Source: Bacteroidota bacterium
GTDB lineage: Bacteria; Bacteroidota; Ignavibacteria; Ignavibacteriales; Ignavibacteriaceae
Reading direction: 5' to 3'
Length of the DNA: 64,000 nt
Assembly (NCBI GenBank): GCA_020161395.1
Contig: JAIUOE010000005.1
Span: 124,001-188,000 of the forward strand
Part shown: positions 4,504 through 62,929 of the stretch, one piece after another
Layout of the letters: each line of letters begins with the position of its first letter
Position numbering within the stretch: the stretch's first letter is position 1
Made by a program: the position numbers and the translations under genes
Notes under the pieces: model-generated
Database searches by the model: none
Seen by the model: only the letters and a program-made list of their open reading frames with translations
What the model was told of the DNA's origin: nothing

Positions 4504-4509
4504 TAAAAA

Positions 4510-4549
4510 TTATTGCATTATTGGATTATTGCATTACTGCATTATCACA
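4510..4549. repeat. 8-bp tandem array (TTATTGCA-type), 5 units
   Basis: Five head-to-tail octamers: TTATTGCA, TTATTGGA, TTATTGCA, TTACTGCA and TTATCACA. The array abuts the nrfA stop codon and precedes its terminator. Related arrays occur at 33466-33505, 38581-38612 and 62818-62897. Confidence 0.8.
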
Positions 4550-6034
4550 TCAGTAGGCGTATAAAAATCCCTGTCTTTTGCGGGCTTCCTCATCCCACTG
4601 CTTGGCTACAGTTTTCAGGAATTCCTCTTTGTCAGCCATCATGGCTTTTAGATCGAATCCAAGAATCGACTGCGCTTTCGCCTTTGTGGAAAAGTCAGGG
4701 AGCACTACAGGATAAGTTTTCCCGTGCTTAATCAGAATGATAGCGAGTTCCTTTCGTGCTTCTTCAGCTTTAGCAAGAGATGTTCCAACAACACGAAGTG
4801 CTTCAACGGGAGCATGGAAACCAAGTCCGTTTGCAGCAGCCACCCAATCCCATCTCCATTGAGCATGACGGATGAGCTTTAGTGCGGGCTTCATTTCTTC
4901 TGGAGTGGCACCGGCATCCCATGCGGCTTTAGCTTCAAGATGAGCTGATGCTATCGCCTTTTCTGCGATTCTTCTGAGTTCTTCCACTCTGTCCTGTCTG
5001 TCATACACATCCTGAATCAGTTTATCTGCTTCTTCACGGTGGCAAACCTGGCATGAATTTGCCACATTTGCGAGAGGACTTTGAATATGGTGATCAGTGT
5101 ACTTTACACCACCTTCGGACTTGTACGGCATGTGGCAATCGGAGCACGATACGCCTCTTTTTGCGTGGATGCCGGTCATGAAAAGTTCAAAATCAGGGTG
5201 CTGGGCTTTGAGCATCGGAGCTTTTGAAAGCTTGTGCTCCCAATCTTTGTAGTCCATTTTATCATAATATGCTTCCATCGAATCAGCACTGAAACCGTTA
5301 TCCCAGGGGAAGGTCAGGTATTTTCCGTCACCTTTGAAATAATATTCCACATGGCATTGTGCACAAACGAGTGATCTCATTTCCTGTCGTGAAGCTTTTG
5401 TGATATCTTTGCCTCTTCTTTGATATGCTTCCACGAGAGCAGGTCTGGTGATACGAAGATTCATGCTCTTGGGATCATGACAGTCCTGACATCCGATCGG
5501 ATTCACTATTTCCGCTCCTTTGTCTTTCCACTTTCCTTTATAAAAGTCGGTAGCCCCAACTTTATTCATAACTCTCGGCACATCGGTACTCTTGCAGCTC
5601 CAGCAGGTGGCAGGTTGTGGACTCTCTTTCACACCACCGGTTCTTAGAGTCAGGCGGATATCCCTGATTGCATGTCCATGGCCTCTTCCCTGCTTGTAGT
5701 CTTTCGCAAAGGCGTAACCTGCCCACATTATCACCAGTTCGGGGTATTTTTCAAGATAATCTATTTCTTTCGATCCTCCATGCTTGCTCGCAAAACTGGT
5801 ATCGAGTGTTTTCATGTAGGTTTCATATTCACGGGGATAGTTCTCTCCCCATACTTCATTTCTTGGTTCCCAGTCTGCGATTGGTTTAACAGCCTGAAGT
5901 GTGAAGCTTTCGGCTCTCCTCTCGACAATGGTTGAGGCAAAAAGGCCGAGTATAAATACAACTGCAACCGTACCAAGGAAGATTACCCAACCCAGCCACG
6001 GTTTTTCTTTTAATAATTCGGAAACAGGTTTCAT
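4550..6034 (-). CDS. nrfA: Cytochrome c nitrite reductase, catalytic subunit (pentahaem)
   Basis: Reduces nitrite to ammonium with six electrons in the periplasm. The 494-residue protein shows the diagnostic CxxCK catalytic haem site CWSCK (about 144-148) and four CxxCH sites: CQDCH (182-186), CAQCH (224-228), CSDCH (297-301) and CQVCH (328-332). The Gln/His region around HAKRGVSCSDC is typical of NrfA. An uncleaved-looking N-terminal hydrophobic segment (about 14-34) would hold it at the membrane. Its start codon directly follows the nrfH stop, so the pair forms the NrfHA complex that draws electrons from the quinol pool. This indicates respiratory ammonification or nitrite detoxification. 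Identification is secure. Confidence 0.97.
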   Translation of the reverse strand: MKPVSELLKEKPWLGWVIFLGTVAVVFILGLFASTIVERRAESFTLQAVKPIADWEPRNEVWGENYPREYETYMKTLDTSFASKHGGSKEIDYLEKYPELVIMWAGYAFAKDYKQGRGHGHAIRDIRLTLRTGGVKESPQPATCWSCKSTDVPRVMNKVGATDFYKGKWKDKGAEIVNPIGCQDCHDPKSMNLRITRPALVEAYQRRGKDITKASRQEMRSLVCAQCHVEYYFKGDGKYLTFPWDNGFSADSMEAYYDKMDYKDWEHKLSKAPMLKAQHPDFELFMTGIHAKRGVSCSDCHMPYKSEGGVKYTDHHIQSPLANVANSCQVCHREEADKLIQDVYDRQDRVEELRRIAEKAIASAHLEAKAAWDAGATPEEMKPALKLIRHAQWRWDWVAAANGLGFHAPVEALRVVGTSLAKAEEARKELAIILIKHGKTYPVVLPDFSTKAKAQSILGFDLKAMMADKEEFLKTVAKQWDEEARKRQGFLYAY

Positions 6035-15013: not shown

Positions 15014-15841
15014 ATGTTGTCTGAACTATCAACTCTTCAACAGAAATGCCGCGAGAAAGACATCAAACTATTTGGTGCCATCTCCGGTGATGTAATCGGA
15101 TCAGATTATGAGTTTGCCGGGATAAAATATTACGATTTTAATCTTTTCCCCCCAAATTCCAACTACACGGACGATTCAGTCCTCACTATAGCAACAGCAA
15201 GTAAACTAATTCTCTCAAGCGACTATTCGACTGAATACCGCAACTTCGGAGCAAAATACCCAAACCCCAAAGGGGCTTATGGTAACAATTTCAGGATGTG
15301 GTTACGAAACCCTGACGCGGTGCCATTAACCAGCTTTGGAAATGGCTCGGCAATGAGGGTGAGTCCGGTGGGGTATGCCTTCAAGACAATCGAAGAAACT
15401 CTCCTTGAAGCAAAGAGAAGCGCCGAAGTTTCCCATGCTCATCCCGAAGGAATTAAAGGAGCACAAGCTACCGCTGCCGCTGTTTTTCTTGCAAGAACCG
15501 GGAGTTCAAAAGAGATTATCAAGGAGTTTATCTCTACCACCTTTCAGTATGATTTGGAGAGAACCTGTGACGAAATACGCCCGAAATACCGATTTGACCC
15601 CTCATGTCAAGGTACGGTCCCCGAATCAATTATTGCATTCCTCGAAAGTAAAGATTTTGAGGATGCCATCCGCCTCACTATCTCCCTCGGAGGAGATTCC
15701 GATACGATGGGAGCTATAACAGGTGCAATTGCGGAGGCGTTCTACGGTGAAGTGCCCCAGTCAATCAAAAGGAAAGTAGTTGAATTGCTTCCTCTCGAAT
15801 TTCTTGATATTATTCTGAAATTTAATACGAAATTCATGTAG
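15014..15841 (+). CDS. ADP-ribosylglycohydrolase (ARH/DraG family)
   Basis: Removes ADP-ribose from modified proteins, nucleic acids or small molecules. The 275-residue protein starts at ATG 15014 with GGAGG 7 nt upstream. The binuclear Mg site is complete: 'GAISGDVIGS' (21-30), 'YTDDS' (51-55: Thr52, Asp53, Asp54) and 'GGDSDTMGAITGAIAEAFYG' (226-245: Asp228, Asp230, Thr231). 'GNGSAMRVSP' and 'SHAHPEGIKGA' also match the family. It is divergent from hipBST across the operator cluster. It could reverse a modification made by a mobile toxin or by phage; this is inference. Confidence 0.92.
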   Translation: MLSELSTLQQKCREKDIKLFGAISGDVIGSDYEFAGIKYYDFNLFPPNSNYTDDSVLTIATASKLILSSDYSTEYRNFGAKYPNPKGAYGNNFRMWLRNPDAVPLTSFGNGSAMRVSPVGYAFKTIEETLLEAKRSAEVSHAHPEGIKGAQATAAAVFLARTGSSKEIIKEFISTTFQYDLERTCDEIRPKYRFDPSCQGTVPESIIAFLESKDFEDAIRLTISLGGDSDTMGAITGAIAEAFYGEVPQSIKRKVVELLPLEFLDIILKFNTKFM

Positions 15842-50921: not shown

Positions 50922-51016
50922 TCTGTTCTCTATTTTTCACAACATATTTATAAATAATTCAGCCGTAAATCTAATCACCACGCTCCTCAAAAAAAAGATG
51001 AATTTTGATGGACGAA

Positions 51017-51190
51017 GGATGAATAGTAAAGGTTGAATTGCGAGGGATGAATAGTGAAGGTTGAATTGCGAGGGATGAATAGTGAAGGTTGAATTGCGAG
51101 GGATGAATAGCGAATATTTGTTTTCAGCCTTCAGCCTTCTTCTCTCAGCCCTCTACATTCAGCCTTCAGCCTTCTCCTTTCAGCCTTCTG
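51017..51190. repeat. 28-bp tandem repeat followed by a CAGCCTT-rich tract
   Basis: A 28-bp unit beginning GGATGAATAGTGAAGG is repeated at 51017, 51045 and 51073, with a partial copy at 51101. It is followed by about 65 bp of TTCAGCC-type heptamers on the same strand, complementary to the GAAGG/TTGAA words of the first part. The element lies just after the stop codon of the phosphatase gene at 51193 and before the TPR gene. Confidence 0.85.
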
Positions 51191-51192
51191 CC

Positions 51193-52101
51193 CTATCTAA
51201 AGAAGAAGTTATAGGAGAAATACCCGAGAACAAACACAAGCAATATTGTTGTCAGATAAAGGAACCAGATAAAAATATTTTCATATTTTCTCGGTTTATG
51301 GACGGGATTCTTGTCAACATAACCTAAAGGAAGGTTACTGCATCCGGAAATTTCAATCAGTTGAATTGTTATATTATCCTTGCCTCCGTTGGAATTCGCG
51401 GTATCGACAAGAATCTGGGCTGCCTTTTCAATGTTGTTTTTCTTGAGGATTGTTTTGATATCCCTCCCGGAGACCTCACCGGTTAGTCCGTCTGTACAAA
51501 GCAACACCCTGTCACCATTATACAGCTTGATAAAATCAGATACTTCAGCGGTTGCTGCTGCACGGGGTCCAAGAGCCTTGGTGATTATATGTTTCTGCTC
51601 GTGATTTGCAGCTTTGGAAGCCTTTATCTTTTTGCGGTCAACGAGTGACTGGACAAGGGAGTGGTCTTTTGTCACAGGAAAAAGCTTCCTGTTTCTGTAA
51701 AGATAAATTCTGCTGTCACCCAAATGTGCAAGGGTAAGTTTGTCATCCATTATCAAGGCAGCAACGGCAGTCGAACCCATCCCTTCATATTCAGGGCGCT
51801 CCAATGCTATCTGCCTTATTTTTGTGTTTGCTCTCGCGAAAGCAGCCTGCAACTCCTTGTAAGGTGTGTAATACTCTGTCACACTGTCAAAATGCTCAAG
51901 AATGGTATCCACTGCTGTCTTCGAGGCAAGCTCACCTCCGGCAGAACCACCCATACCGTCGCATACCACAAACAGGAAACCAAACTCACCTGAAAGGTAG
52001 CCGAAATAGTCTTCGTTTCGCTCTCTTTCTTTTCCTGGATCTGTTATCGCTACGGTTTCAACCTGAACATCAATGCGTTCCCGGTCTAATTTCTTGGTCA
52101 T
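51193..52101 (-). CDS. PP2C-type Ser/Thr phosphatase with C-terminal membrane anchor
   Basis: A 302-residue PPM phosphatase of the Stp/PrpC type. Metal-binding motifs: 'ERNEDYF' (28-34), 'VVCDGMGGSAGGELAS' (46-60), 'LAHLGDSRIYLYR' and 'GKDNITIQLIE'. The catalytic domain ends near residue 250 and a membrane helix follows (about 275-298). It would remove phosphate from Ser/Thr-kinase targets. No Hanks-type kinase is encoded in the window. Different from the SpoIIE phosphatases at 23.8-30.9 kb in lacking sensor domains. Confidence 0.92.
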   Translation of the reverse strand: MTKKLDRERIDVQVETVAITDPGKERERNEDYFGYLSGEFGFLFVVCDGMGGSAGGELASKTAVDTILEHFDSVTEYYTPYKELQAAFARANTKIRQIALERPEYEGMGSTAVAALIMDDKLTLAHLGDSRIYLYRNRKLFPVTKDHSLVQSLVDRKKIKASKAANHEQKHIITKALGPRAAATAEVSDFIKLYNGDRVLLCTDGLTGEVSGRDIKTILKKNNIEKAAQILVDTANSNGGKDNITIQLIEISGCSNLPLGYVDKNPVHKPRKYENIFIWFLYLTTILLVFVLGYFSYNFFFR

Positions 52102-53268: not shown

Positions 53269-54042
53269 TCAGAACTTTAGCTTCCTCATACTGATGTGAC
53301 ACAAGGCGAAGTCATATTTTACGGGGTCATCAGAATCGAATTCCCTGAGACGGTCTGTGATTTCTGCCGCTGTCTTCCATGATGAATCATTTCTCTTCGT
53401 GAGTCCGAGTTCCTTGCTGATTCTTGCGATGTGTAAATCGAGCGGAATTATCAGATTCTCTTTCCCAATCTCTTTCCAGAAGCCGAAATCGAGTTCGTCC
53501 TCCCGAACCATCCACCTTAAGAACAAGTTCATTCGCTTGCAGGCACTTCCTCTGTCAGGTTCAGGAAAGAAATGGCGAAATCCTCTCGTCAGTCTTCCCG
53601 ACTTCTCTGCAAAATCAATAAACGAACTGCTGAAGTGCTGAATTCCCTCTTTCAGGCTGCCATTCCCGTTAAATCCCTCCATAAACAGAGGTTTTAACCC
53701 CGTTCCGCCATATTTTGAAATAAAATGCTGAATTCCCAGCAGAAGTGTTGCGACATCCTGTGACGAATAAAACCTGTAATAAAATCCCTCGACTCTCTCC
53801 TCAAGATGCACCGAATCCTTTAACACAACAGCCGGAGAATCATCCAGAAGTTCAAGCAACCGGTTTACATTTTTAATGATTTGATCGACCGAACCATACG
53901 CGAATTTCGCGGCAAAAAAAGCGGCGAGCTCAATGTCCTGAGGTGAAGTAAACCGGTGGGGAATCTCCAGCGGGTCGGGCGAGAGCCTATCCCGCCCGAA
54001 TGCTTTATAATGAAATTCAAGTCTTTCTTTAAGGTTCGACAA
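53269..54042 (-). CDS. TIGR02757 family protein
   Basis: A 257-residue protein matching the TIGR02757 (DUF2400) pattern: 'DPLEIPHRFTSPQDIELAAFFAAKFAYGSVDQIIKNVNRLL', 'YYRFYSSQDVATLLLGI', 'CKRMNLFLRWMVREDELDFGFW' and 'LIIPLDLHIARISKELGLTKR'. The helical pattern with a conserved Asp in 'PLDLHIAR' resembles a HhH-GPD DNA glycosylase fold. The molecular function is not established. Convergent with the SPOR-domain gene, one base apart. Confidence 0.88.
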   Translation of the reverse strand: MSNLKERLEFHYKAFGRDRLSPDPLEIPHRFTSPQDIELAAFFAAKFAYGSVDQIIKNVNRLLELLDDSPAVVLKDSVHLEERVEGFYYRFYSSQDVATLLLGIQHFISKYGGTGLKPLFMEGFNGNGSLKEGIQHFSSSFIDFAEKSGRLTRGFRHFFPEPDRGSACKRMNLFLRWMVREDELDFGFWKEIGKENLIIPLDLHIARISKELGLTKRNDSSWKTAAEITDRLREFDSDDPVKYDFALCHISMRKLKF

Positions 54043-54047
54043 TTTGC

Positions 54048-54656
54048 TTACAGATATTTATTTAACAGAGTTTTAAATTTATTGAGATCGAATGCCGGCG
54101 TAACATCGAGCTTGCCTGAATAAAGATTGCAATGTTTTACTATTCCTTTATATGCAAGATACGAAGGCGAATATTCAAAACTGTCCTGTACCGATGGTTT
54201 TATATCAAAAAAACAGCAAAGATCAGCACAAAGTTTTGCAGTTGCTTCATATTGAGCTTCAGTAAATCCGGCAAAGTATCGAAACCCCCGCCATGTGGAT
54301 TTAAAGTCAGAGACTTCACCCGTATATTCCTGCCAGCCCGAGCCCGCATTCCAATGAAATTTGCCGTTGATCTCCTTCAGATAGCCTTCATTTGCTATCT
54401 CAATTCCAATGTTGCGGGCATCGTATGCCGATCCGTTTCCGGTGTGATATGCCCAGTAACAGGCAGGGAAAAGTTCGATTACCTCACCCCCTTTATCGAT
54501 TGCAAAAGCCGTGGCAATAGCTCCTTTCTGCAAATTCCACCAGTCACCAACCCCCGCCGCAGAAGAAGACGCCGTCCCGTGAAGGACAATCTGTGACTTC
54601 GGATATACTTCCCTTATGAATTCCCCTTCGTTCAGGTGTTTTATTTTTCGTTTCAT
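54048..54656 (-). CDS. N-acetylmuramoyl-L-alanine amidase (endolysin-type)
   Basis: A 202-residue type-2 amidase that cuts the lactyl-peptide bond of peptidoglycan. 'IVLHGTASSS' holds the first zinc His, 'ARNIGIEIANEGYL' is a family block, and 'GIVKHCNLYSGKLDVTP' holds the second zinc His. The ligand-bearing end 'SGKLDVTPAFD' is close to the usual GKxDPGxxFD. No signal peptide, as in phage endolysins that need a holin. It is the last gene of the phage-derived cluster, overlapping the spanin-like gene by 4 nt. Confidence 0.9.
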   Translation of the reverse strand: MKRKIKHLNEGEFIREVYPKSQIVLHGTASSSAAGVGDWWNLQKGAIATAFAIDKGGEVIELFPACYWAYHTGNGSAYDARNIGIEIANEGYLKEINGKFHWNAGSGWQEYTGEVSDFKSTWRGFRYFAGFTEAQYEATAKLCADLCCFFDIKPSVQDSFEYSPSYLAYKGIVKHCNLYSGKLDVTPAFDLNKFKTLLNKYL

Positions 54657-55177
54657 AAGCCTATCATTACCCCCATTCCTATGAATATGTCTGTTTGTTT
54701 ATTAAGTATCCCGTACCCCGGGGCTATCACCAAGCCGAAATGGAGCCATTTGCTTAGAATATCCGGCTCCACTTCGATGTAAACAGTTTCCACCTCTCTC
54801 ACCTTTCTTTCTTTGAGTCTCGCATCTATCTCAAAAAAAGATTCTGCGTCAAGGGGAGAAGGTGACCTGTATCTTATCCCAAGCGAAAGTGATGAATCAA
54901 ACATCACGGTATCCAGCGAGGCGGTGAAGACGGGAGCACGGTTTTCCATACTCGTCGTATCGCTTGAAACAACGAATACTTCCACTGTATCCACGGTAAA
55001 AACCGGCTTTACCTTCTCAATTGTCTGATATTTGATTGAGTAAACAGTATCCCTGACTACACTTTTTTCAATAATCCGTACTCCCGTATGCGTGCTCCCG
55101 GTGTTGTTTCGTGCCACGAACCAGAAGATCAATGCTCCCAAAACGACACAAACTGCAACTGCTGTCCACCTATTCAA
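54653..55177 (-). CDS. Spanin-like single-helix protein
   Basis: I choose the TTG at 55177 (LNRWTAVAV), preceded by GGGGAGAG 7 nt upstream, because it overlaps the end of the holin gene by only 8 nt; the longer frame to 55267 lies within the holin gene. About 174 residues: one membrane helix (about 5-23) and a long external part with beta-like repeats and a charged segment ('EIDARLKERKVREVETVYIE'). Position between holin and amidase suggests an inner-membrane spanin. The sequence itself is not diagnostic. Confidence 0.55.
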   Translation of the reverse strand: MNRWTAVAVCVVLGALIFWFVARNNTGSTHTGVRIIEKSVVRDTVYSIKYQTIEKVKPVFTVDTVEVFVVSSDTTSMENRAPVFTASLDTVMFDSSLSLGIRYRSPSPLDAESFFEIDARLKERKVREVETVYIEVEPDILSKWLHFGLVIAPGYGILNKQTDIFIGMGVMIGL

Positions 55178-55469
55178 TCTTTTTCTCTCCCCGGATATAC
55201 TCGAAAATCCGCTTAATTGTGTATTCACCAATATAAGTATAAAACAGAATGCTGAATGACGCCACAAGGAGAATCGACAAAACCGAAGTCGTTATCTCCC
55301 CGGTTGAAACATCACCCAGCAGGGTGACAACGGAAGCTGTAACTACCAGCATCCACCTTTTTCTGATATAACCTCTTGCAATCATGTATGCAGCTTCAGT
55401 GATGATACTGGTTATCGCACCATACAGTGCCAGATACCAGACACCAAGAAGACCAAATAATATTTCCAT
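55170..55469 (-). CDS. Holin-like protein
   Basis: A 99-residue membrane protein with three hydrophobic helices (about 5-28, 40-56 and 60-83) and a charged C-terminus (RIFEYIRGEKKIE). Size, topology and position directly before the spanin-like and amidase genes fit a holin that lets the endolysin cross the inner membrane. There is no strong family motif, so this rests mainly on context. Confidence 0.65.
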   Translation of the reverse strand: MEILFGLLGVWYLALYGAITSIITEAAYMIARGYIRKRWMLVVTASVVTLLGDVSTGEITTSVLSILLVASFSILFYTYIGEYTIKRIFEYIRGEKKIE

Positions 55470-55480
55470 CGATTCCTCCC

Positions 55481-56191
55481 CTATTTTCTTGATCCAAAGA
55501 TCAGATTATTTAATTCGTCAGATGCACCAAGAGCAAGCCCGCCGCCCGTGATTCCGAGAAGACTCCCAAGGATTGATCCAATTACACCACCAATACCCGT
55601 CTTTCCCTCTTCAAAAGCGAGTTTTTTGAGATCAAGTTCATCTTTTAACATTCTGTTTCTGTCACCCGACAGTTTCAGATTCCCCAACAGAGAAAACAAA
55701 TCACGCTCTGACTGCCGGTCACTCGCTCCAAGAGATGCCGATACCGATTCAATTCCGAGCAGTTTGTTTATTGCATCTTTTCGACTCTCCTCGTCAAGGG
55801 CAGCAATTTTGGTCACCAGCGAATTTTTGGCATCCGATTCGCTCTCATAGATTTTATTCATGGTGTTTGCCGCCACCCCTGATTTGTTTAGCCCTGCCTC
55901 AACCAGAGATTTTTTCAATTCGTCGATCGCTCCACCTCTCGATTTCTCCAGCTCCCTGATTCCAAGAGCTCTTTGTTCGGCTAGAGCCTTGCTCCCCGAA
56001 GAGACTTCATCACTTAGAGTCTTTTTTATCCCGGAAATGCTGCTGTTATAGTTTCCGGCGATTCCGCTGTTTCCGAACATCCCTTTTATTGATTCTGCCG
56101 AAACACTCCCCGGGAAAACACTCCCCAAAGCCGATCTCAACAGTTCTTCCATTATGTAGTTATAGGTGTCGCCACCTGATGCTCCGGGCAT
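55481..56191 (-). CDS. Phage-type helical protein with C-terminal hydrophobic segment (possible ejection protein)
   Basis: A 236-residue protein dominated by a long helical, coiled-coil region (about 60-195; 'EQRALGIRELEKSRGGAIDELKKSLVEAGLNKSG'), followed by a Gly-rich hydrophobic stretch ('GIGGVIGSILGSLLGITGGGLALGA', about 198-222). This arrangement is seen in internal or tail-needle proteins of short-tailed phages that enter the membrane during DNA delivery. Its place between the nozzle gene and the lysis genes supports a virion or ejection role. No family name can be given. Confidence 0.6.
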   Translation of the reverse strand: MPGASGGDTYNYIMEELLRSALGSVFPGSVSAESIKGMFGNSGIAGNYNSSISGIKKTLSDEVSSGSKALAEQRALGIRELEKSRGGAIDELKKSLVEAGLNKSGVAANTMNKIYESESDAKNSLVTKIAALDEESRKDAINKLLGIESVSASLGASDRQSERDLFSLLGNLKLSGDRNRMLKDELDLKKLAFEEGKTGIGGVIGSILGSLLGITGGGLALGASDELNNLIFGSRK

Positions 56192-56199
56192 ATTCCCTC

Positions 56200-56496
56200 C
56201 TAATTTATTTTAACCCATTTGCTTTTAACTAAAATATATTCACTTGTCTCTCCGCCGGATTCATGTAAAATTCTGGTGTACTCCGGAATTGCTTCCGGAT
56301 TCGGGAGCACCGAAGTTATGTATGGTATTGATGCCACCTGTAACTTCTCTCCCCCCGTAAACAGAAAAAGTATTTTAATCCCCTCCCGTTTCAAAAGAAA
56401 AAAGGTCCCGTCATCGAGACTGCCGTTTTCAGGCAACCGGTCACCATGTGCTACAGCCGGTGCAAACCAGTTACGCATCTCTTGAACATTCGTCAT
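56200..56496 (-). CDS. Small protein of the phage cluster, unknown function
   Basis: A 98-residue acidic to neutral protein without signal peptide: 'MTNVQEMRNWFAPAVAHGDRLPENG' region, then beta-like segments ending 'YILVKSKWVKIN'. It overlaps the end of the nozzle gene by 4 nt and precedes the helical protein by 8 bp, so it belongs to the same transcript and is probably a minor virion component. No recognised domain. Confidence 0.6.
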   Translation of the reverse strand: MTNVQEMRNWFAPAVAHGDRLPENGSLDDGTFFLLKREGIKILFLFTGGEKLQVASIPYITSVLPNPEAIPEYTRILHESGGETSEYILVKSKWVKIN

Positions 56497-57170
56497 GCCC
56501 TGATCCTCCTGGTTTCAAGTTTTATCATCCGTAAAATTTTTAACCCTGTTCCCTTTATTTTTACCGCAATTCTCCGGCAAAACTCCCCTGTCCCTGTCAT
56601 TTGTGAAACAGGGATAATTTTGATCGACTCCGACTCCTCTGTTACTGGATATCCGACAGTCAGCTCACCTGAGTCGTTTTGAAGTGTAATCTCCACTTCA
56701 CCAGGGAGTGACTCATAATATACTCTCAACTTTCTCGCCCTCATTAGATCGTAACCTTGATATGAAAATGCCCTGCCTGTCAGCTCAACTTCCACCTCTG
56801 TATCCAATTCTCCGATGTTATCAGTTGACAAAAGAGAAGACCTGTACTCACAGATTGTGCCACTTTTCCATGCAAGAAGCAGTTCTTCGGCACCACCTGA
56901 GAAAGTCGATACTCCCTTCAGACCCGAATGAGTAAATTTGTACCAGGAACCTGTCTTCTCATCATAAATGAGCAGCATTGACGAACCATTCTTCATTTTC
57001 AGAGGAAAACAGCACCACCCCCTCTCTGATAACCAGGCAGGCGGATAGAATGATTCAACCTGTGACCATGTTTTAAGCAGCAACTCACCCGGAGCAGTAA
57101 TCTCTCCTCCACTGTATCTCCTGATACTGCCATTGGAAAAAAACCAGATCCCGCTCCCCGTTCGAAGCAC
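56493..57170 (-). CDS. C-terminal part of nozzle-like tail protein (frameshifted)
   Basis: A 225-residue frame that is the continuation of the gene at 57275-58720 in the -1 frame. The frame is open far upstream of its first start codon and encodes 'FLPENVISLPQGSNAG' and 'DDVDGILIFTGTSISKLY' back to about 57360, joining smoothly to the upstream protein. The segment has beta-propeller-like strands ('WFFSNGSIRRYSGG', 'LIYDEKTGSWYKFTHSG') expected at the C-terminal end of such nozzle proteins. Taken as one gene (56493-58720), the product is about 742 residues. It is not likely to be made alone, since no ribosome site precedes its first ATG-type start. Confidence 0.7.
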   Translation of the reverse strand: MLRTGSGIWFFSNGSIRRYSGGEITAPGELLLKTWSQVESFYPPAWLSERGWCCFPLKMKNGSSMLLIYDEKTGSWYKFTHSGLKGVSTFSGGAEELLLAWKSGTICEYRSSLLSTDNIGELDTEVEVELTGRAFSYQGYDLMRARKLRVYYESLPGEVEITLQNDSGELTVGYPVTEESESIKIIPVSQMTGTGEFCRRIAVKIKGTGLKILRMIKLETRRIRA

Positions 57171-57274
57171 CGAATTTCTGTCCCCGACGCCGGTCCGGTT
57201 TTCCAGGGTTACAATCCGCCAGGTAACGGGATCACCGGTAGTATATAATTTACTGATTGAGGTGCCGGTGAAGA

Positions 57275-58720
57275 TTAAGATGCCATCAACATCATCGTAT
57301 ATGGAGATGATCCCGGCATTGCTCCCCTGCGGAAGCGAGATGACATTCTCCGGTAAAAATGAGAAAAATTCCCGGGTTCGGAAAAAGCTATCGTGGATGG
57401 GAAATCGGTAATTTTTACACTGTTGTCAAATGTTTCGAAACCAAGACCGTCATCACCGAGAGTATCTGTGAATGCAATCTGGTTAAGTGTCAGTTTTACA
57501 GGATGTCTGAAGAAGGTGCTCCCGTCCTTTTTTGTTCTGTAGAGCCTTTTCTCAACTATTCTTGTGGATTCTGCAGAAGGAAGAAACGGGATGTAATTCA
57601 GAGTTATTGCTGCCATGTTCTCAAACTCCTCACCCGGAGTAAGAATTGATGGTGTCTCGATGTGCCGGCTTGCAGTCCCGTTCGCATCCATATAAACAAT
57701 GCGATATCTGTATTCCGAAGCATTCCAAATTTCTCCTCCTGTTATCACACCCGAGCCTGAAAATATCCTGATGCCTGCACCGTCATTTGAAAAAGGAGGC
57801 TCAAAGAAGTTGATTTCCTGCATTCTGATATTCCCGGTGAATAACCTCCCTTTATTAAAGCAGTATGACAGACCTGCAGGAAGGGATGTAAATTTTGCGA
57901 TCCGCCACGATGAAAGTTCATCATCATGCGACTTGTCGGTATAATCCGACTCATCAGGCGGCAGTACCGCGAGTTCGTAATAAATGAAGGGTGAACTCGA
58001 GAGTGAAGATGCAGTGACAGCCTTCGTCCTGAAAAGCTTTTTTCTTACCACCCTTGGATCGGAAGGAACAGGTAAATTGCTGATCTCTACTCTGTTGGCT
58101 GTGCCTGAAAATCCAGTCGAACCGGTTGTATGCGACCTGTAAGCAGTAAAAGGCTGCGAGGGGGAAGAGAAATCCCCCTCTCCGGACTCGTAAACCAGTA
58201 CATAGTTATACCATCCCTGGGGAATGCTCCCGCCTGTATCATGCTGAACAACAACAACGGGAGTATCACCCGAAATTAGGGGTTGTTCGATTCCCGGGGA
58301 TGTCACTTCTTCAAAATCCGTTCCCCCCGCAACCCTGTTCGAGAAACCGCTGAATATCAGGGATCTCCCTCCACCTGTGTCCAGTGCTCCGTAGTATTCT
58401 GAATGCTCCAGTCCTGTACAAACCTCAACCCACGATTCGGTCCCATCTTTTGAAACATAAAGTTTCCCTCCGGCAATCGCTGCAAGAAACTCCCCACCGG
58501 AAACCGTTCTCAATGAGAAGAGGCCTGAGATTTCGGAAGAAAGGGAAGGGAGGGAGGAATTTCTCCAACTCCCCCTCCGCACAGGAACTCCCCCCGAACC
58601 TGCATCATCCAGTACCAGATTTATCATCTCCTGCACTTCACCTTCGCCAAGCAACAGGGGATCCGGCAACTCGTTTATTCTCTTCACTGCTCCCGCCATT
58701 ATCCATGTGTCCATTGTCAA
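57275..58720 (-). CDS. N-terminal part of nozzle-like tail protein (frameshifted)
   Basis: A 481-residue frame beginning 'GAVKRINELPDPLLLGEGEVQEMINLVLDDAGSGGVPVRRGSWR', the usual opening of short-tailed-phage nozzle or stabilisation proteins (N-terminal strand, 'dP..L..GE..E..N...D..G....R.G'). The rest is beta-rich with repeated 'RVVRKKLFRTK' and 'RIVEKRLYRTK' units. The last about 25 residues (after 'EPGNFSHF') are out of frame; reading on in the -1 frame restores a sensible protein. The break lies in one of two T5 runs at 57355-57359 and 57364-57368. Confidence 0.75.
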   Translation of the reverse strand: MTMDTWIMAGAVKRINELPDPLLLGEGEVQEMINLVLDDAGSGGVPVRRGSWRNSSLPSLSSEISGLFSLRTVSGGEFLAAIAGGKLYVSKDGTESWVEVCTGLEHSEYYGALDTGGGRSLIFSGFSNRVAGGTDFEEVTSPGIEQPLISGDTPVVVVQHDTGGSIPQGWYNYVLVYESGEGDFSSPSQPFTAYRSHTTGSTGFSGTANRVEISNLPVPSDPRVVRKKLFRTKAVTASSLSSSPFIYYELAVLPPDESDYTDKSHDDELSSWRIAKFTSLPAGLSYCFNKGRLFTGNIRMQEINFFEPPFSNDGAGIRIFSGSGVITGGEIWNASEYRYRIVYMDANGTASRHIETPSILTPGEEFENMAAITLNYIPFLPSAESTRIVEKRLYRTKKDGSTFFRHPVKLTLNQIAFTDTLGDDGLGFETFDNSVKITDFPSTIAFSEPGNFSHFYRRMSSRFRRGAMPGSSPYTMMLMAS

Positions 58721-59442
58721 TAACCCATATTGTATCTGATATTTTCCGGAAGACCTCTGGTGTTCTCCTTTGCGAGCCTTCCGCGTTCACCCTGCTTCTC
58801 GAGAAATTTTTGATATGCTGCCGAAATCTCACTCTGAATCTGTTTGGTTTTTACCTGCTTTGCTTCAAGATTCCCCAAAATTCCGTCGATCTCCGCTACC
58901 GCTTTCTTGATAACATATTCCTCAAACTCCATCGGTATCGAGGTTTCATCATTGTCATTGACGAGATCCGCTGCAGCTTTGTAATAATAAGCCACAAGTG
59001 AGTTAACCTCCACGGGTGCAACAAGTACCTGATTTGCGAGTCGCATGAAAACCGCTGACCCTGTGGTCGGTGACAGCCAGGTGTTGTCGATCTGCTCTTT
59101 GAATCTCTCCAGATCCACTTCAAATGCCAGACCGTGCGCCACTCCGTCACTGCACTCAATAAAGATAATCGATCTGGGACTCTCCAGCATCTGCGGGAAA
59201 TTCTCTTCATTCAGTGTAACCGAAACAACAGGCTTGCCAACAAAGGTTGTCGAACGGATACTTTCGCTCAAAACAACTCTCGTCTCCCATTTCTTCATCC
59301 CAAGTCCGTTCAACTCTGTCTGTATCGACCTTTGTGCAAGATTAATAATTCTGTTCAGTCTGTTAACAGGAAACAAAGGATTCCCCTGCACATTCGCATC
59401 TATAACGATCTGATCCCTTAGTTCTGCCAGTGTTGATGCCAT
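58717..59442 (-). CDS. Phage head-tail adaptor-like protein 2
   Basis: A 241-residue protein opening 'LAELRDQIVIDANVQGNPLFPVNRLNRIINLAQRSIQTELN', the helical pattern of head-tail adaptor proteins. A beta-rich middle follows, then a C-terminal helix-rich segment ('FEEYVIKKAVAEIDGILGNLEAKQVKTKQIQSEISAAYQKFLEKQ'). It overlaps the nozzle gene by 4 nt. With the preceding gene it may represent two adaptor layers between head and nozzle. Confidence 0.7.
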   Translation of the reverse strand: MASTLAELRDQIVIDANVQGNPLFPVNRLNRIINLAQRSIQTELNGLGMKKWETRVVLSESIRSTTFVGKPVVSVTLNEENFPQMLESPRSIIFIECSDGVAHGLAFEVDLERFKEQIDNTWLSPTTGSAVFMRLANQVLVAPVEVNSLVAYYYKAAADLVNDNDETSIPMEFEEYVIKKAVAEIDGILGNLEAKQVKTKQIQSEISAAYQKFLEKQGERGRLAKENTRGLPENIRYNMGY

Positions 59443-59453
59443 TTTCCCCTCCT

Positions 59454-60080
59454 TTATAATTGTGATAACATTTCAATTTTGTTGGTAAACATTCCAAAAA
59501 AACCGGCGGCTTCTTCATTCTGTTTATCCTTTTCGAGCAGAAGTGCTGCGGCATACGAGATAATTGCTCCTGACGCATTATCGGGCAATTCGCTGTTTTG
59601 CACCTCTGATATTCTGTTTGCCTTCCTGAGATAATTTATTACCACCCTGCCGTTTACCAGAGGAAGTTCGAAGACCAGTTTACCTCCCCTCAGGAAGGCA
59701 TACAGGTTTGCTCCATCCGGTTTCAGGAAACGGTTGTGCTCCCGTGCATATCTTGCCATGGAAGTGCTCCGGATCATGCAAGGCTTCAATAATGCTCCCG
59801 ATGTGGGAGCACATTTTACCGAGAGAAGATACATAAAACCTGACGGGAGAGCGATATCAGCCGCAGTAACCGGCTCGATTGTCTGCTCCGTTTCAAGCGG
59901 CGTAAGAAGGAGGGGGAGCTCTCCTTCCACTCCCCCCTCAGCAAAGACAAACAGACAGTAGTTCACCACTTCATCCTGACCGTCATTCAAGGCATCCAAT
60001 ACCTCGGCATCACTCCAGAAACCTGCCTCCCTTTCATCCAGAAGCGATCTTACTCTCGTGACCATCTCTGCAGTTGTCAT
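59454..60080 (-). CDS. Phage head-tail adaptor-like protein 1
   Basis: A 208-residue protein opening 'TTAEMVTRVRSLLDEREAGFWSDAEVLDALNDGQDEVVNYCL', the typical start of phage connector or adaptor proteins (short helix, 'LLDE....WSD.E.L..LN..Q.E'). The middle is beta-like and the C-terminus helical ('ASGAIISYAAALLLEKDKQNEEAAGFFGMFTNKIEML'). It follows a small gene by a 4-nt overlap and precedes the second adaptor-like gene by 11 bp. Confidence 0.75.
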   Translation of the reverse strand: MTTAEMVTRVRSLLDEREAGFWSDAEVLDALNDGQDEVVNYCLFVFAEGGVEGELPLLLTPLETEQTIEPVTAADIALPSGFMYLLSVKCAPTSGALLKPCMIRSTSMARYAREHNRFLKPDGANLYAFLRGGKLVFELPLVNGRVVINYLRKANRISEVQNSELPDNASGAIISYAAALLLEKDKQNEEAAGFFGMFTNKIEMLSQL

Positions 60081-60325
60081 TTTTTCTTCCCCCTCTCACC
60101 GGTTTTCCCCGTTGCTCCCCCTTCCGTCTCTTTCCCTGTGACCTGTTCAACCCTGACTTCCCCTGTCTCGTGATAATCCCTCCCAAAAGCCACAGACCCT
60201 TTAAGAGCAGCTATCGCGTCTTCATCATCCGTGAAGTATACTCCCGTAACCCCCTCGGGAACGAATGAAAACTTCTTCCCTGCCAGCGTTATCGAGTATC
60301 TCCTGTATTTACTTACGAATTTCAT
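60077..60325 (-). CDS. Small protein of the phage structural cluster
   Basis: I choose ATG 60325 (MKFVSKYRRYSI) because AAGGAG lies 8 nt upstream; the frame extends 18 bp further. About 82 residues: a compact beta-like N-terminus ('YRRYSITLAGKKFSFVPEGVTGVYFTDDEDAIAALKGS') of a type often found between capsid and adaptor genes, then a Gly/Lys/Glu-rich low-complexity tail. Minor head component is a reasonable guess. Confidence 0.65.
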   Translation of the reverse strand: MKFVSKYRRYSITLAGKKFSFVPEGVTGVYFTDDEDAIAALKGSVAFGRDYHETGEVRVEQVTGKETEGGATGKTGERGKKK

Positions 60326-60349
60326 TTCCGTTTCTCCTTTCATTTTTTT

Positions 60350-60515
60350 GAGATATGAGAGACCTGAGAGACTTGAGAAACTTGAGAAACTTAAGAGACT
60401 CGAGTGACTTCAGTACCAAATTTCTCAGGTACTCAAGTTCTCTGGTACTCAGGTACTCAAGCTCTCAAGTTCTCAGGTTCTCAAGTTCTCAGGTTCTCAA
60501 GTTCTCGAGTCTCTC
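60350..60515. repeat. Reiterated-octamer hairpin between capsid and small protein genes
   Basis: Read on the minus (coding) strand, the stretch is about eleven GAACYTGA-type octamers followed by about five GTYTCTCAA-type nonamers. The two halves are complementary (CTTGAG with CTCAAG), so the whole region can fold into a long, register-variable hairpin. It starts directly after the capsid stop codon and ends just before the next ribosome site. Confidence 0.85.
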
Positions 60516-61712
60516 CTAAACTGCTTTCCTCAGTATCCCGTGGCATTCCTCATTGTGGATTTCGATGCCAAGGTCCATAAGTATCTTTGTGGTTGTTCCA
60601 TCCACACCCGGGGTTTCCACTCCTTCCTCGATACGGAATTTCCTGCTTCCTTTTTTATCGTTTGCCATGAAACGAAGTTTAACCTTGTCGGCATCGATTG
60701 TGAATCCGTAATCAGTGAATTTCCCGTCCATCACAGGATTCCAGATTATATCCACGCTCCCAAAGGGTGTCAGATACTCCCTGACATTCACTCCGTAGAT
60801 TGAAACTGCAGGATTTGGATTCAGTTCATACCTGTTCTTAATGAATTTATTGATTTCAGAAAGCTGACCACTGCCACAAATGTGAATTTTCCTGTTAGAT
60901 CCCTTCTGAAACACTTCTCTCAAATGATCATCGAAGGTATCTTCATCGAGTGACGGTGAATAACTGTTCACATTTGTAAGTATTCGCCCAAGAAAGCCGT
61001 GCCCCCAGGTTGTCCTGTAATTGCCGGCAGTGGCATACCCCTGACCCGGTGCAAAAAGGAAATATCGCTCCGCCTGCAGCTTCATTTCCTCAATTTTCTT
61101 TGCAACCAGTGCAGGATGATCGACTCCGTCCGTATAGTTTTCTCCTGCCTGATGTCTTCCGGTGGTGGCAACACTTTCGCTGAAAATGTTCAGATAGTTG
61201 AATTTCTCCACTTCTTTTACACTTACAGCAGTTCTTACACCTGAATATTCCGAATTGCGGCTGCCGATAATTTTCAGATACATCCCTTCAGTCTGAAGTG
61301 ACGAAAGATTAGAGCTGCCATCGATGTGGGTGAGAACTGCCTGATTCGTCGACTTCGATGAGACAAAAGCCATCTGGTCTGTTTCTTCGATGAGTACTAT
61401 ATCATCAAGATTGAAGATCGACAGCGAATTGCAGTTTGATGTATTCAATGTGATTGTTGCCGGTGTACCCAGGGCAGAAATGGTTGTTTTGTTTGTCGTC
61501 TGGTGCGGGAAAAGTTCACTCTCGAACCAGGAGAATTTTGCGAACGGACTCCTTACTTCCTTCGATTTACGCCCCGAGAACCAAAGGAACTGAAGCAGCG
61601 GTGTCTGATATGGTTTTAATAAATAAAGTATCTTCTCTACATCAGGTACTGCGTTGGCAGCATTCATTGTTGATGAAGATACCACACCTGAGTTGATTGA
61701 CTCGTAAGCCAT
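60516..61712 (-). CDS. Phage major capsid protein (HK97 fold, DUF5309/SU10-like)
   Basis: A 398-residue protein in the family of DUF5309/SU10-type major capsid proteins: 'MNAANAVPDVEKILYLLKPYQTPLLQFLWFSG', 'SPFAKFSWFESELFPHQTT', a beta-rich 'ATITLNTSNCNSLSIFNLDDIVLI' domain, 'EKIEEMKLQAERYFLFAPG' helix region, 'LREVFQKGSNRKIHICGSG', 'INKFIKNRYELNP' and a 'FGSVDIIWNPVMDG' strand. The C-terminal 'ETPGVDGTTTKILMDLGIEIHNEECHGIL' is also typical. Preceded 10 bp upstream by a scaffold-like gene. The capsid appears intact. Confidence 0.85.
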   Translation of the reverse strand: MAYESINSGVVSSSTMNAANAVPDVEKILYLLKPYQTPLLQFLWFSGRKSKEVRSPFAKFSWFESELFPHQTTNKTTISALGTPATITLNTSNCNSLSIFNLDDIVLIEETDQMAFVSSKSTNQAVLTHIDGSSNLSSLQTEGMYLKIIGSRNSEYSGVRTAVSVKEVEKFNYLNIFSESVATTGRHQAGENYTDGVDHPALVAKKIEEMKLQAERYFLFAPGQGYATAGNYRTTWGHGFLGRILTNVNSYSPSLDEDTFDDHLREVFQKGSNRKIHICGSGQLSEINKFIKNRYELNPNPAVSIYGVNVREYLTPFGSVDIIWNPVMDGKFTDYGFTIDADKVKLRFMANDKKGSRKFRIEEGVETPGVDGTTTKILMDLGIEIHNEECHGILRKAV

Positions 61713-61722
61713 GTTTCCCTCT

Positions 61723-62130
61723 CTAATTAGTGATTTGATTAATTATGCTTTTCAATAAACGGCTGTTGCCTGCCAGCGAGTGCCTTCCCGAACTCCCAGT
61801 CTCCATCGGAGGGCGCAGCCTCTCCGCCCTCTTCAATGTTTCCTTCACTTTTTTGATGACCGTCTCCCCTTCCTCTTTTTTCCTCCTCTCAAGGTCGGCA
61901 AGATTTTCCTTGTGCTCCCTGAACTTTTTTAACTGATGAGCAAACACTGCAGGATCGACTGACACCACTTCAAAATACCCCGGGTATTCCCTGTCCCACT
62001 CGGGTATCAATTCGGAAGCATCCGGTGATCCTAGTGTCTCGCTTATCCCCCGCTTTATCTCATCAGCCTTCCCCGCAGCGGCAGCAGCGATGAGCTCACT
62101 GAACAAATTTTTTAACTCTTCCTCGTTCAT
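61723..62130 (-). CDS. Scaffold-like protein of the phage cluster
   Basis: About 135 residues from ATG 62130 (MNEEELKNLF), with GAAGG 5 nt upstream; a TTG at 62142 is the longer option. The protein is highly charged and helical ('VFAHQLKKFREHKENLADLERRKKEEGETVIKKVKETLKRAERLRPP'), with an acidic N-terminus and a basic C-terminus, as in capsid scaffolding proteins. Its place directly before the major capsid gene supports this. It is the first gene of the cluster; only 158 bp separate it from the divergent thioredoxin-like gene, so the promoter lies there. Confidence 0.65.
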   Translation of the reverse strand: MNEEELKNLFSELIAAAAAGKADEIKRGISETLGSPDASELIPEWDREYPGYFEVVSVDPAVFAHQLKKFREHKENLADLERRKKEEGETVIKKVKETLKRAERLRPPMETGSSGRHSLAGNSRLLKSIINQITN

Positions 62131-62288: not shown

Positions 62289-62792
62289 ATGTGCAGCAGT
62301 AAATGGACATGCTATTTTAAGTACTTCCTGCTCCTCGCAGCTTTCCTTGGAATGTCTGTTTTCGCTCAGGCAGGAAAAGTTGAACGGGAGAAGTTCGACC
62401 CGACGCGTAATCCCGTCGAAGATCTGAAATCTGCAGTAAAACAGGCAACCGAACAGAATAAAAGAATCCTGCTTGATGTGGGCGGCGAATGGTGCATCTG
62501 GTGCCACCGTATTGATGAATTCGTGGAAACGAATGATGATATTAAAAAGGCATTCCACGATGCTTTTGTGGTTCTTAAAGTAAATTTCAGCCCTGAAAAT
62601 AAAAATGAGGCTTTTCTCTCTGCTTACCCGAAGATTGAGGGTTATCCCCATTTCTTTGTTCTGGAAGGTGACGGCAGTCTCCTCCACTCCCAGAATACAG
62701 GTGACCTCGAGGAAGGTAAATCGTATTCCAAAACCAAATTTCTTGAGTTCATCACCGCTTACAAAAAAACCGGCACCAAAACTCAACAGTAA
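62289..62792 (+). CDS. Exported thioredoxin-like protein
   Basis: A 167-residue protein with a signal peptide (to about residue 27, FAQA) and a thioredoxin fold: 'NKRILLDVGGEWCIWCHRIDEFVETN' with the active-site CIWC (Cys69, Cys72), then 'VVLKVNFSPENKNEAFLSAYPKIEGYPHFFVLEGDG' containing the cis-Pro region 'GYPHF'. It resembles thioredoxin_7/DsbD-gamma-type domains, so a periplasmic disulfide or reductant-linked role is likely. Start ATG 62289. Divergent from the phage-derived cluster. Confidence 0.88.
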   Translation: MCSSKWTCYFKYFLLLAAFLGMSVFAQAGKVEREKFDPTRNPVEDLKSAVKQATEQNKRILLDVGGEWCIWCHRIDEFVETNDDIKKAFHDAFVVLKVNFSPENKNEAFLSAYPKIEGYPHFFVLEGDGSLLHSQNTGDLEEGKSYSKTKFLEFITAYKKTGTKTQQ

Positions 62793-62817
62793 ACCAACCG
62801 GTCATTGCCTTAATGAT

Positions 62818-62897
62818 TACCGGATTATTGGATTACTGCATTATTGGATTATTGGATTATTGGATTACTGCATTATTGGATTATTGCATTATTGAAT
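62818..62897. repeat. 8-bp tandem array (TTATTGGA-type), 10 units
   Basis: Ten uninterrupted octamers: TTACCGGA, then TTATTGGA in five units, TTACTGCA in two, TTATTGCA and TTATTGAA. It is the longest of the octamer arrays, lies 25 bp after the thioredoxin-like gene stop codon, and is not a CRISPR array (no spacers). Confidence 0.9.
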
Positions 62898-62929
62898 TAA
62901 AACTCTTTTTCCATCAAAATTAAAGCGTC

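Follow-up and report, generated by a model that had tools for sequence, protein, structure and literature searches.

The window, that is the whole stretch of 64,000 nucleotides of DNA that was analysed, carries on its minus strand, at 53269-62130, a short head cluster of SU10-like type, made up of the capsid, an amidase and two adaptor-like proteins, which is colinear in a sister species, G003, where the capsid is 98% identical. The two proteins that follow the capsid match the SU10 adaptor, the scanned proteins include no recognisable portal or terminase, and no relative of the capsid was confirmed in viral contigs; the ensemble could be a prophage, old or domesticated, or a gene-transfer-agent-like cluster. 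The whole spacer between the stop codon of the capsid gene and the next ORF, 172 bp on the minus strand, is filled by an array of short tandem words (Table 1). The TAG stop (60516-60518) abuts this array: GAGAGACTC comes directly after it, then ten units in perfect 8-nt register. A preliminary description of the region had counted about eleven GAACYTGA octamers, which is close to the ten in register, while exact copies are only six; nine units depart from GAACYTGA by at most one mismatch and the tenth, GTACCAGA, by two. The complementary downstream arm that it had described is present indeed, with a step of 9 nt instead of 8. As the arms step by 8 and 9 nt, they would pair with bulges, and the clean sliding of the hairpin in register that had been envisaged is therefore not expected. 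For the downstream gene, the true start is probably the second ATG, at about 60325, after a GGAG; it is preferred because the first ATG is absent in the sister species.

The spacer had been taken for the only sizeable gap in the structural cluster, which is roughly right, another gap being found at 57171-57274 (or 56997-57274, according to the start codon). Its proposed link to the other arrays of the window through an 8-bp step holds as regards their kind, not as regards their word: the arrays at 4509-4545 and 62815-62899 have a step of 8 with the word ATTATTGG/GC, and that at 51013-51192 a step of 7/14/28. In the sister species a counterpart was found for the first of these, the second differs in length and the third displays the same words.

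Table 1. Coordinates of the features discussed (positions in the window unless a contig is named)
Feature	Position	Strand	Evidence or remark
Major capsid gene (SU10-type MCP)	60516..61712	-	PF17236 SU10_MCP, E 2.3e-38; phrog_1328 major head protein, E 1.5e-24; ORF
First (GAG, 'F') arm, ten GAACYTGA-type units, 8-nt register	60422..60506	-	Sequence, unit count, TRF
Region between arms (approximate; short loop)	60412..60421	-	RNA fold
Second (CTC, 'R') arm, words CTCAAGTTT/CTCAAGTCT, 9-nt step, pyrimidine-rich	60351..60411	-	Sequence, word positions
A-run (six A) after the hairpin, not a U-tract	60344..60349	-	Sequence; no terminator-like match
Next gene, 88 aa as listed, no family match	60077..60343	-	ORF, profile searches
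Array of same general kind, two arms, 7/14/28-bp step	51013..51192		Directly after stop of 51193-52101 (-)
8-bp array, word GGATTATT	62815..62899		23 bp after stop of 62289-62792 (+)
8-bp array, word ATTATTGC	4509..4545		4 bp after stop of 4550-6034 (-)
Y1 gene with REP/RAYT-like cassette, also in G003	Gene C13:28516-28860; gene with palindromes L012:4350-5540		Many GGCCCC..GGGGTC..TATGGGTAG palindromes on both sides

The hairpin is real and of very low energy. Folding of the minus-strand RNA gave -79.7 kcal/mol; shuffled sequences gave -46.5 +/- 4.3, and not one of 200 folded as well (z -7.6). The plus strand folds with a z of -6.1. Premature termination had been among the roles suggested for it, a suggestion that does not stand in its intrinsic form: no U-tract lies beside the hairpin on either strand (the minus strand has an A-run, the plus strand CCTAAA), which rules out an intrinsic (Rho-independent) terminator, and a search for terminator-like sites gave no match in 60344-60515. 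An Rfam search returned no match across the window. The array may act on mRNA stability or by attenuation. Hairpins are known behind the major capsid genes of phages, the T7 terminator that follows gene 10 being one of them, and the array shares with that terminator its position directly after the capsid gene; it differs in having no U-tract and in carrying the sequence of a host-wide repeat family.

Relatives of the capsid gene allow us to consider this position in other genomes. The gene was found in six of the 59 genomes searched, one of the six being the present genome, G000, and it occurs twice in G003. A hairpin follows it at five of seven loci, with z -3.3 or lower, and none follows it in G001 and G005 (z -0.4 and +2.0), one of the two hairpin-less loci being in the same genus (L054). 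A hairpin behind this gene is thus common, without being universal or of a single kind: those of G000, G003 and G002 are word arrays, each with a sequence of its own, and those of G027 and of the second copy of G003 are plain stems, the last-named followed by a T-run (L057). In G005, which belongs to another genus, quite different arrays, made of CGTTGATCGTTGCTCGTT and ACAGGAGACAGGA words, lie downstream of the ORF that follows the capsid (L056).

The array is not a property of the head cluster. Used as a query against its own 4.07-Mb genome, the 172-bp sequence gave 34 matches, which make up 17 loci when merged within 2 kb, and most of these adjoin ordinary host genes, as far as reading frames show. 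A family found at 17 loci host-wide rules out a phage-specific element, and the control device for the capsid cluster that had been proposed finds no support in arrays that are spread in this way, one of them within the coding sequence of an oxidoreductase, and that display, as will be seen, no excess of same-site complementarity. Capsid-type arrays are but one part of a wider tandem-word habit of this genome: a tandem-repeat scan (TRF) of 564 kb found 88 arrays, as compared with five in letter-shuffled DNA, the commonest periods of the intergenic ones being 8, 9, 7 and 14 bp, and other words met in the same genome include ATTATTGG, TTCAGCC and AACTCAT. The census combined TRF with tolerant voting, a strict word-regex missing real arrays.

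Arrays lie preferentially at the 3' ends of genes, in counts that pool all array types and take gene ends from our own simple gene caller. Within the 564 kb, 17 of the 29 arrays in same-direction gaps lie at most 25 bp from the upstream stop, for 8.2 expected (0 of 2000 random placements reached this), and downstream starts exert no such attraction (7 of 29, for 8.3 expected). The sister species behaves alike, with 12 of 22 close to the upstream stop at the same distance (5.8 expected, p 0.0005) and 3 of 22 near the downstream start (5.7 expected). Convergent gaps, with 8.8% of the intergenic bases of G000, hold 11 of its 51 intergenic arrays, and divergent gaps, with 28.7%, hold 11 as well, 24 of the 75 merged arrays being unassigned to a gap as they lie inside ORFs or at edges. 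The first array word often supplies the stop codon, for example TAG AACTTC. At own2 36582 and 182393 (G000:C2:413.6k and 559.4k) there are TAATCCAA/TAATGCAG arrays in which the TAA stop of the gene is one word.

The copy at C9:4121-4246 lies within an oxidoreductase gene (FAD_oxidored, PF12831, E 6.8e-88), in frame, the ORF staying open in three species, G000, G003 and G002. In G003 the array is longer and made of other words, those of family II defined below, and family II words also form the array of G002; G001 has a different insert at this place, and G027 a short loop without any array. The inserted peptides differ between G000 and G003. One would expect a strong termination signal to be hard to bear inside such a gene.

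Comparison with the sister species, which is colinear with positions 18860-64000 of the window at about 91% DNA identity, indicates how quickly these arrays change. In this part, to which the count was limited since the rest of the window is not fully colinear and was left out, all eight indels of at least 8 bp fall in arrays or within about 20 bp of them, and array length does differ between the species, a variation that the preliminary description had proposed to look for. Two families of words were told apart by word content, partly by eye: family I is made of ..CYT-GAG.. words and family II of GAACYTCR words. Family I gave 34 matches in G000, five in G003, three in G002 and none in G001; family II gave 29, 39, 7 and 0 in the same order. 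When 61 genomes from the taxonomic family were searched, three contained family II words, and these three belong to one genus. The hairpin of G003 at the capsid site lies in the same place and is shorter, with GAACCTCG/GAACTTCA words and a second arm that matches them. Sixteen sites of families I and II were compared in this way and 15 resolved, the counterpart of G000:C2:392.3k (own2 15231-15355) being unreadable and left out. At six of the 15, family I in G000 has given place to family II in G003, in the two arms alike. These six are the capsid site, C9:4.1k (within the oxidoreductase gene), C8:37.9k, C9:15.4k, C2:466k and C2:460k; at C2:460k, G003 also has 6.3 kb of other DNA. The family is the same in both species at eight sites, namely five of family II, C1:444k, C2:497k and C2:556k, where the words are mixed, and one site, C13:28k, is without an array in G003. 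As regards MITEs, which have terminal inverted repeats and a target-site duplication, inverted arms are present here, and no clean pair of an occupied and an empty site with such a duplication was met among the sites compared. A 6.3-kb stretch of G003 that is absent from G000 (G003:C2:984776-991103; g32 84776-91103) has a hairpin array on either side, which gives the impression of a segmental duplication or insertion with arrays at its borders.

The order of the arms is fixed. All 28 two-armed sites run from GAG-arm to CTC-arm, none being reversed, among 41 extracted sites (28 of G000 and 13 of G003, some of them orthologous) which also include seven with the CTC-arm only and six with the GAG-arm only, as seen in the extract; the sites were listed by BLAST with a two-armed query, which may favour two-armed sites. 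The reversed order would be expected to pair about equally well, and a fixed order agrees with a two-armed unit that was copied or inherited from a common ancestor. When five switched sites were considered, the arms paired better within than across species at four of them: the capsid-site arms gave -78.5 and -40.8 kcal/mol within species and -38.0 and -23.4 across, and at C2:466k one cross-species pairing (-34.8) is as good as an own one (-33.2). It would be tempting to see there the compensatory evolution of a functional stem. A permutation test, in which each arm of 18 two-armed sites of G000 was matched with its own partner or with the partners of other sites, tells otherwise: same-site arms match at 0.364 for family I (0.382 permuted, p 0.73), at 0.422 for family II (0.470 permuted, p 0.996) and at 0.383 for the pooled families (0.335 permuted, p 0.08). 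The arms of a site thus fit each other no better than they fit arms from other sites of the same family. We therefore reject locus-specific covariation, to which C2:466k was already an exception; belonging to one word family is enough to produce the apparent compensation, and the cross-species agreement is therefore not evidence for selection on the capsid-site stem. Nor is it evidence for recent correction of one arm by the other.

We read the array behind the capsid gene, with a probability of roughly 0.57, as one copy of a dispersed, genus-restricted, fast-evolving and selfish-like family of hairpin-forming tandem-word repeats. In a full copy, a GAG-rich arm made of 8-9-nt words comes first and a rough inverted complement of it second, and copies sit mainly right behind stop codons, as well as in other intergenic gaps. 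The family changes in length by whole words and, over short times, the copy present at a site can be replaced by one of a different word family, both arms together. Copies or tracts would move between sites by conversion or insertion, a mobility that we infer because the arrays are dispersed, share their words and keep their arm order; word families would compete, and the whole would behave as small selfish repeats. At the capsid locus, the transcript would carry a long 3' stem-loop, acting at most as a generic protection of the 3' end or as a mild block to the next gene. One may tentatively go further, with more doubt than belief, and see in the arrays a new class of bacterial mobile hairpin, built only of 8-9-nt words, always with the GAG-arm before the CTC-arm, landing at the 3' ends of genes, to which its first word lends the stop codon, and in which one word family sweeps the genome, overwriting both arms at fixed sites by an undescribed copying mechanism.

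Might the arrays have arisen where they are, slippage lengthening short words and template switching at imperfect inverted repeats bringing each arm back into line with its partner, with no spread from site to site? Indels concentrate in arrays, and the many and varied words of this genome suggest that a general slippage-prone process could make arrays locally; template switching is described as able to generate and preserve hairpins (PMC8794818). Purely local mutation is nonetheless unlikely, as two word families recur at many unlinked loci, with words that seem far more alike than independent origin allows, the arm order is the same in 28 cases out of 28, the arms of a site are no better copies of each other than arms of different sites, and at the capsid site they do not even share their step (8 as opposed to 9).

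A hairpin acting in cis in the RNA and selected at the capsid locus, where it would set the ratio of capsid to downstream expression by stabilising the 3' end or by partial termination, appears to us quite improbable. It would account for the presence of hairpins of unrelated sequence at five of seven homologous loci, one of them with a T-run, for a stem kept in G003 in spite of the change of both arms, and for the place of the array, between co-directional genes and behind a gene that is presumably highly expressed. It leaves aside the two loci that have none, one within the genus, and the arrays of 16 other loci, mostly beside ordinary host genes and once inside an ORF, and it sits poorly with the lack of both a U-tract and an excess of same-site complementarity.

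Movement of non-autonomous elements by a transposase of the RAYT/IS200 (Y1) type, in the manner of REPINs, is very improbable: the genome has three Y1_Tnp genes, one of them in a cassette (C13:28516-28860) flanked in G000 by a family I GAG-arm and CTC-arm on its outer sides, and the 3'-end habit matches that of REPs (PMC3733652), but each of the three genes sits among palindromes of another kind than the arrays, the cassette of G003 is without either array arm, and the arrays lack a GTAG tag and greatly exceed 20-40 bp in length. For the first two of these reasons the arrays are not the neighbouring palindromes of any of the three Y1 genes, mobilisation by the cell's own Y1 transposases is unsupported, and so is, in view of the armless cassette, the insertion of a RAYT cassette into the loop of an existing hairpin at C13; no enzyme could be tied to the arrays, the three Y1 genes of this genome carrying other palindromes. 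Each of the two further Y1_Tnp genes (L188 and L190, on G000:C10) is adjoined by a palindrome family of its own (CCCCCGAAGCGGGG..TTCGTAGA; AGGACAATCGAGACGATTGTC). In L020, palindromes that resemble these stand between two array arms, and in L190 there is a CTC-type stretch downstream of the Y1_Tnp gene.

In its habit the array family resembles REP, RPE and heptamer repeats, and it departs from each in the features that define them. REPs (PMC3733652) are dispersed palindromes found near the 3' ends of upstream ORFs, between convergent genes and sometimes inside genes, and the arrays share their place next to gene 3' ends (17 of 29 and 12 of 22, all array types). A REP or REPIN is a palindrome of 20-40 bp with an unpaired GTAG/CGTC tag, of which there is no trace at array ends, and it flanks a dedicated Y1/RAYT gene, whereas the three Y1 genes here have other palindromes nearby and the outer arms at C13 are absent in G003; arrays, unlike REPs, BIMEs and REPINs, are made of tandem words, measure about 75-260 bp and have fewer copies. 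Rickettsia palindromic elements are palindromic repeats of about 150 bp, some of them in frame in protein genes (PMC10969869), and the oxidoreductase gene provides the only such case met here; a conserved peptide is not found, in contrast, as the inserted peptides differ between the two sister species.

Heptamer repeats (STRR, TAACTGA) have been reported in Beggiatoaceae, Cyanobacteria and Bacteroidetes. They are (PMC4679880), as the arrays are, short tandem words dispersed between genes, at positions that close strains may share, with indels of whole units, some after stops and some in ORFs. Dispersed, mostly intergenic arrays that vary in length between close relatives are what we observe as well. 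The word of capsid-type arrays, however, is 8/9 nt long and not 7, a 7-nt array being found elsewhere in the window (51013-51192), and the arrays have units of 8-9 nt, mostly in two-armed inverted pairs of fixed order, that switch word family between sister species. They lie at gene 3' ends, whereas heptamer repeats lie mostly just upstream of starts (PMC4679880). The palindromic microsatellites or double-hairpin elements of Fusarium mitochondria come from further afield: the excerpts of PMC7218506 at our disposal present them as tandem-repeat palindromes, optional between sister species, with neighbouring indels, and read as mobile. They are mitochondrial, with mononucleotide (A)n/(T)n arms where the arrays have 8-9-nt words, and word-family replacement, which occurs here, is not described for them in those excerpts (PMC7218506). 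In a search of the literature that covered subscription journals thinly, we found no octamer arrays reported to have two arms and to undergo word replacement.

Small dispersed hairpins shape the ends of bacterial genes, and their origin and spread are for the most part unsettled. Two species that stand about 9% apart have here kept the positions while replacing the sequence of both arms, so that the process of replacement is directly testable by comparing strains. It is also worth emphasizing, as a warning, that 'compensatory' changes between species do not prove that an RNA stem is functional: in the present case it is their common word family that makes the two arms agree, and permutation gives no extra locus-specific fit.

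Outside the genus, the exact triple of GAACYTGA was met in 26 stretches, in a collection of 84,980 species and in unrelated phyla, a recurrence that may not exceed chance among tandem octamers. One Acidobacteria genome gave 39 matches to the array, and the examples inspected are tandem arrays of the TTCTCAGG type; were the new class of mobile hairpins real, this recurrence would point to machinery shared across phyla. Within the own phylum, the exact triple is found in one of 395 genomes, the present one, and only at the capsid locus; the reversed word used as a control is found in none of the 395, so the exact-triple test says little and we draw nothing firm from the recurrence of GAACYTGA across phyla.

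Two minor observations may be added. A palindrome core, GCGCCGCGGCGC or a sequence near it, recurs in the loop or arm at L136, at the C8-site of G003 (L148) and in the capsid gap of G002 (L053). At L009:3479-4867 a hint of a Bacteroidota-like lineage comes from a weak match to a T9SS C-terminal sorting domain (PF18962, E 0.004, below the cut-off).
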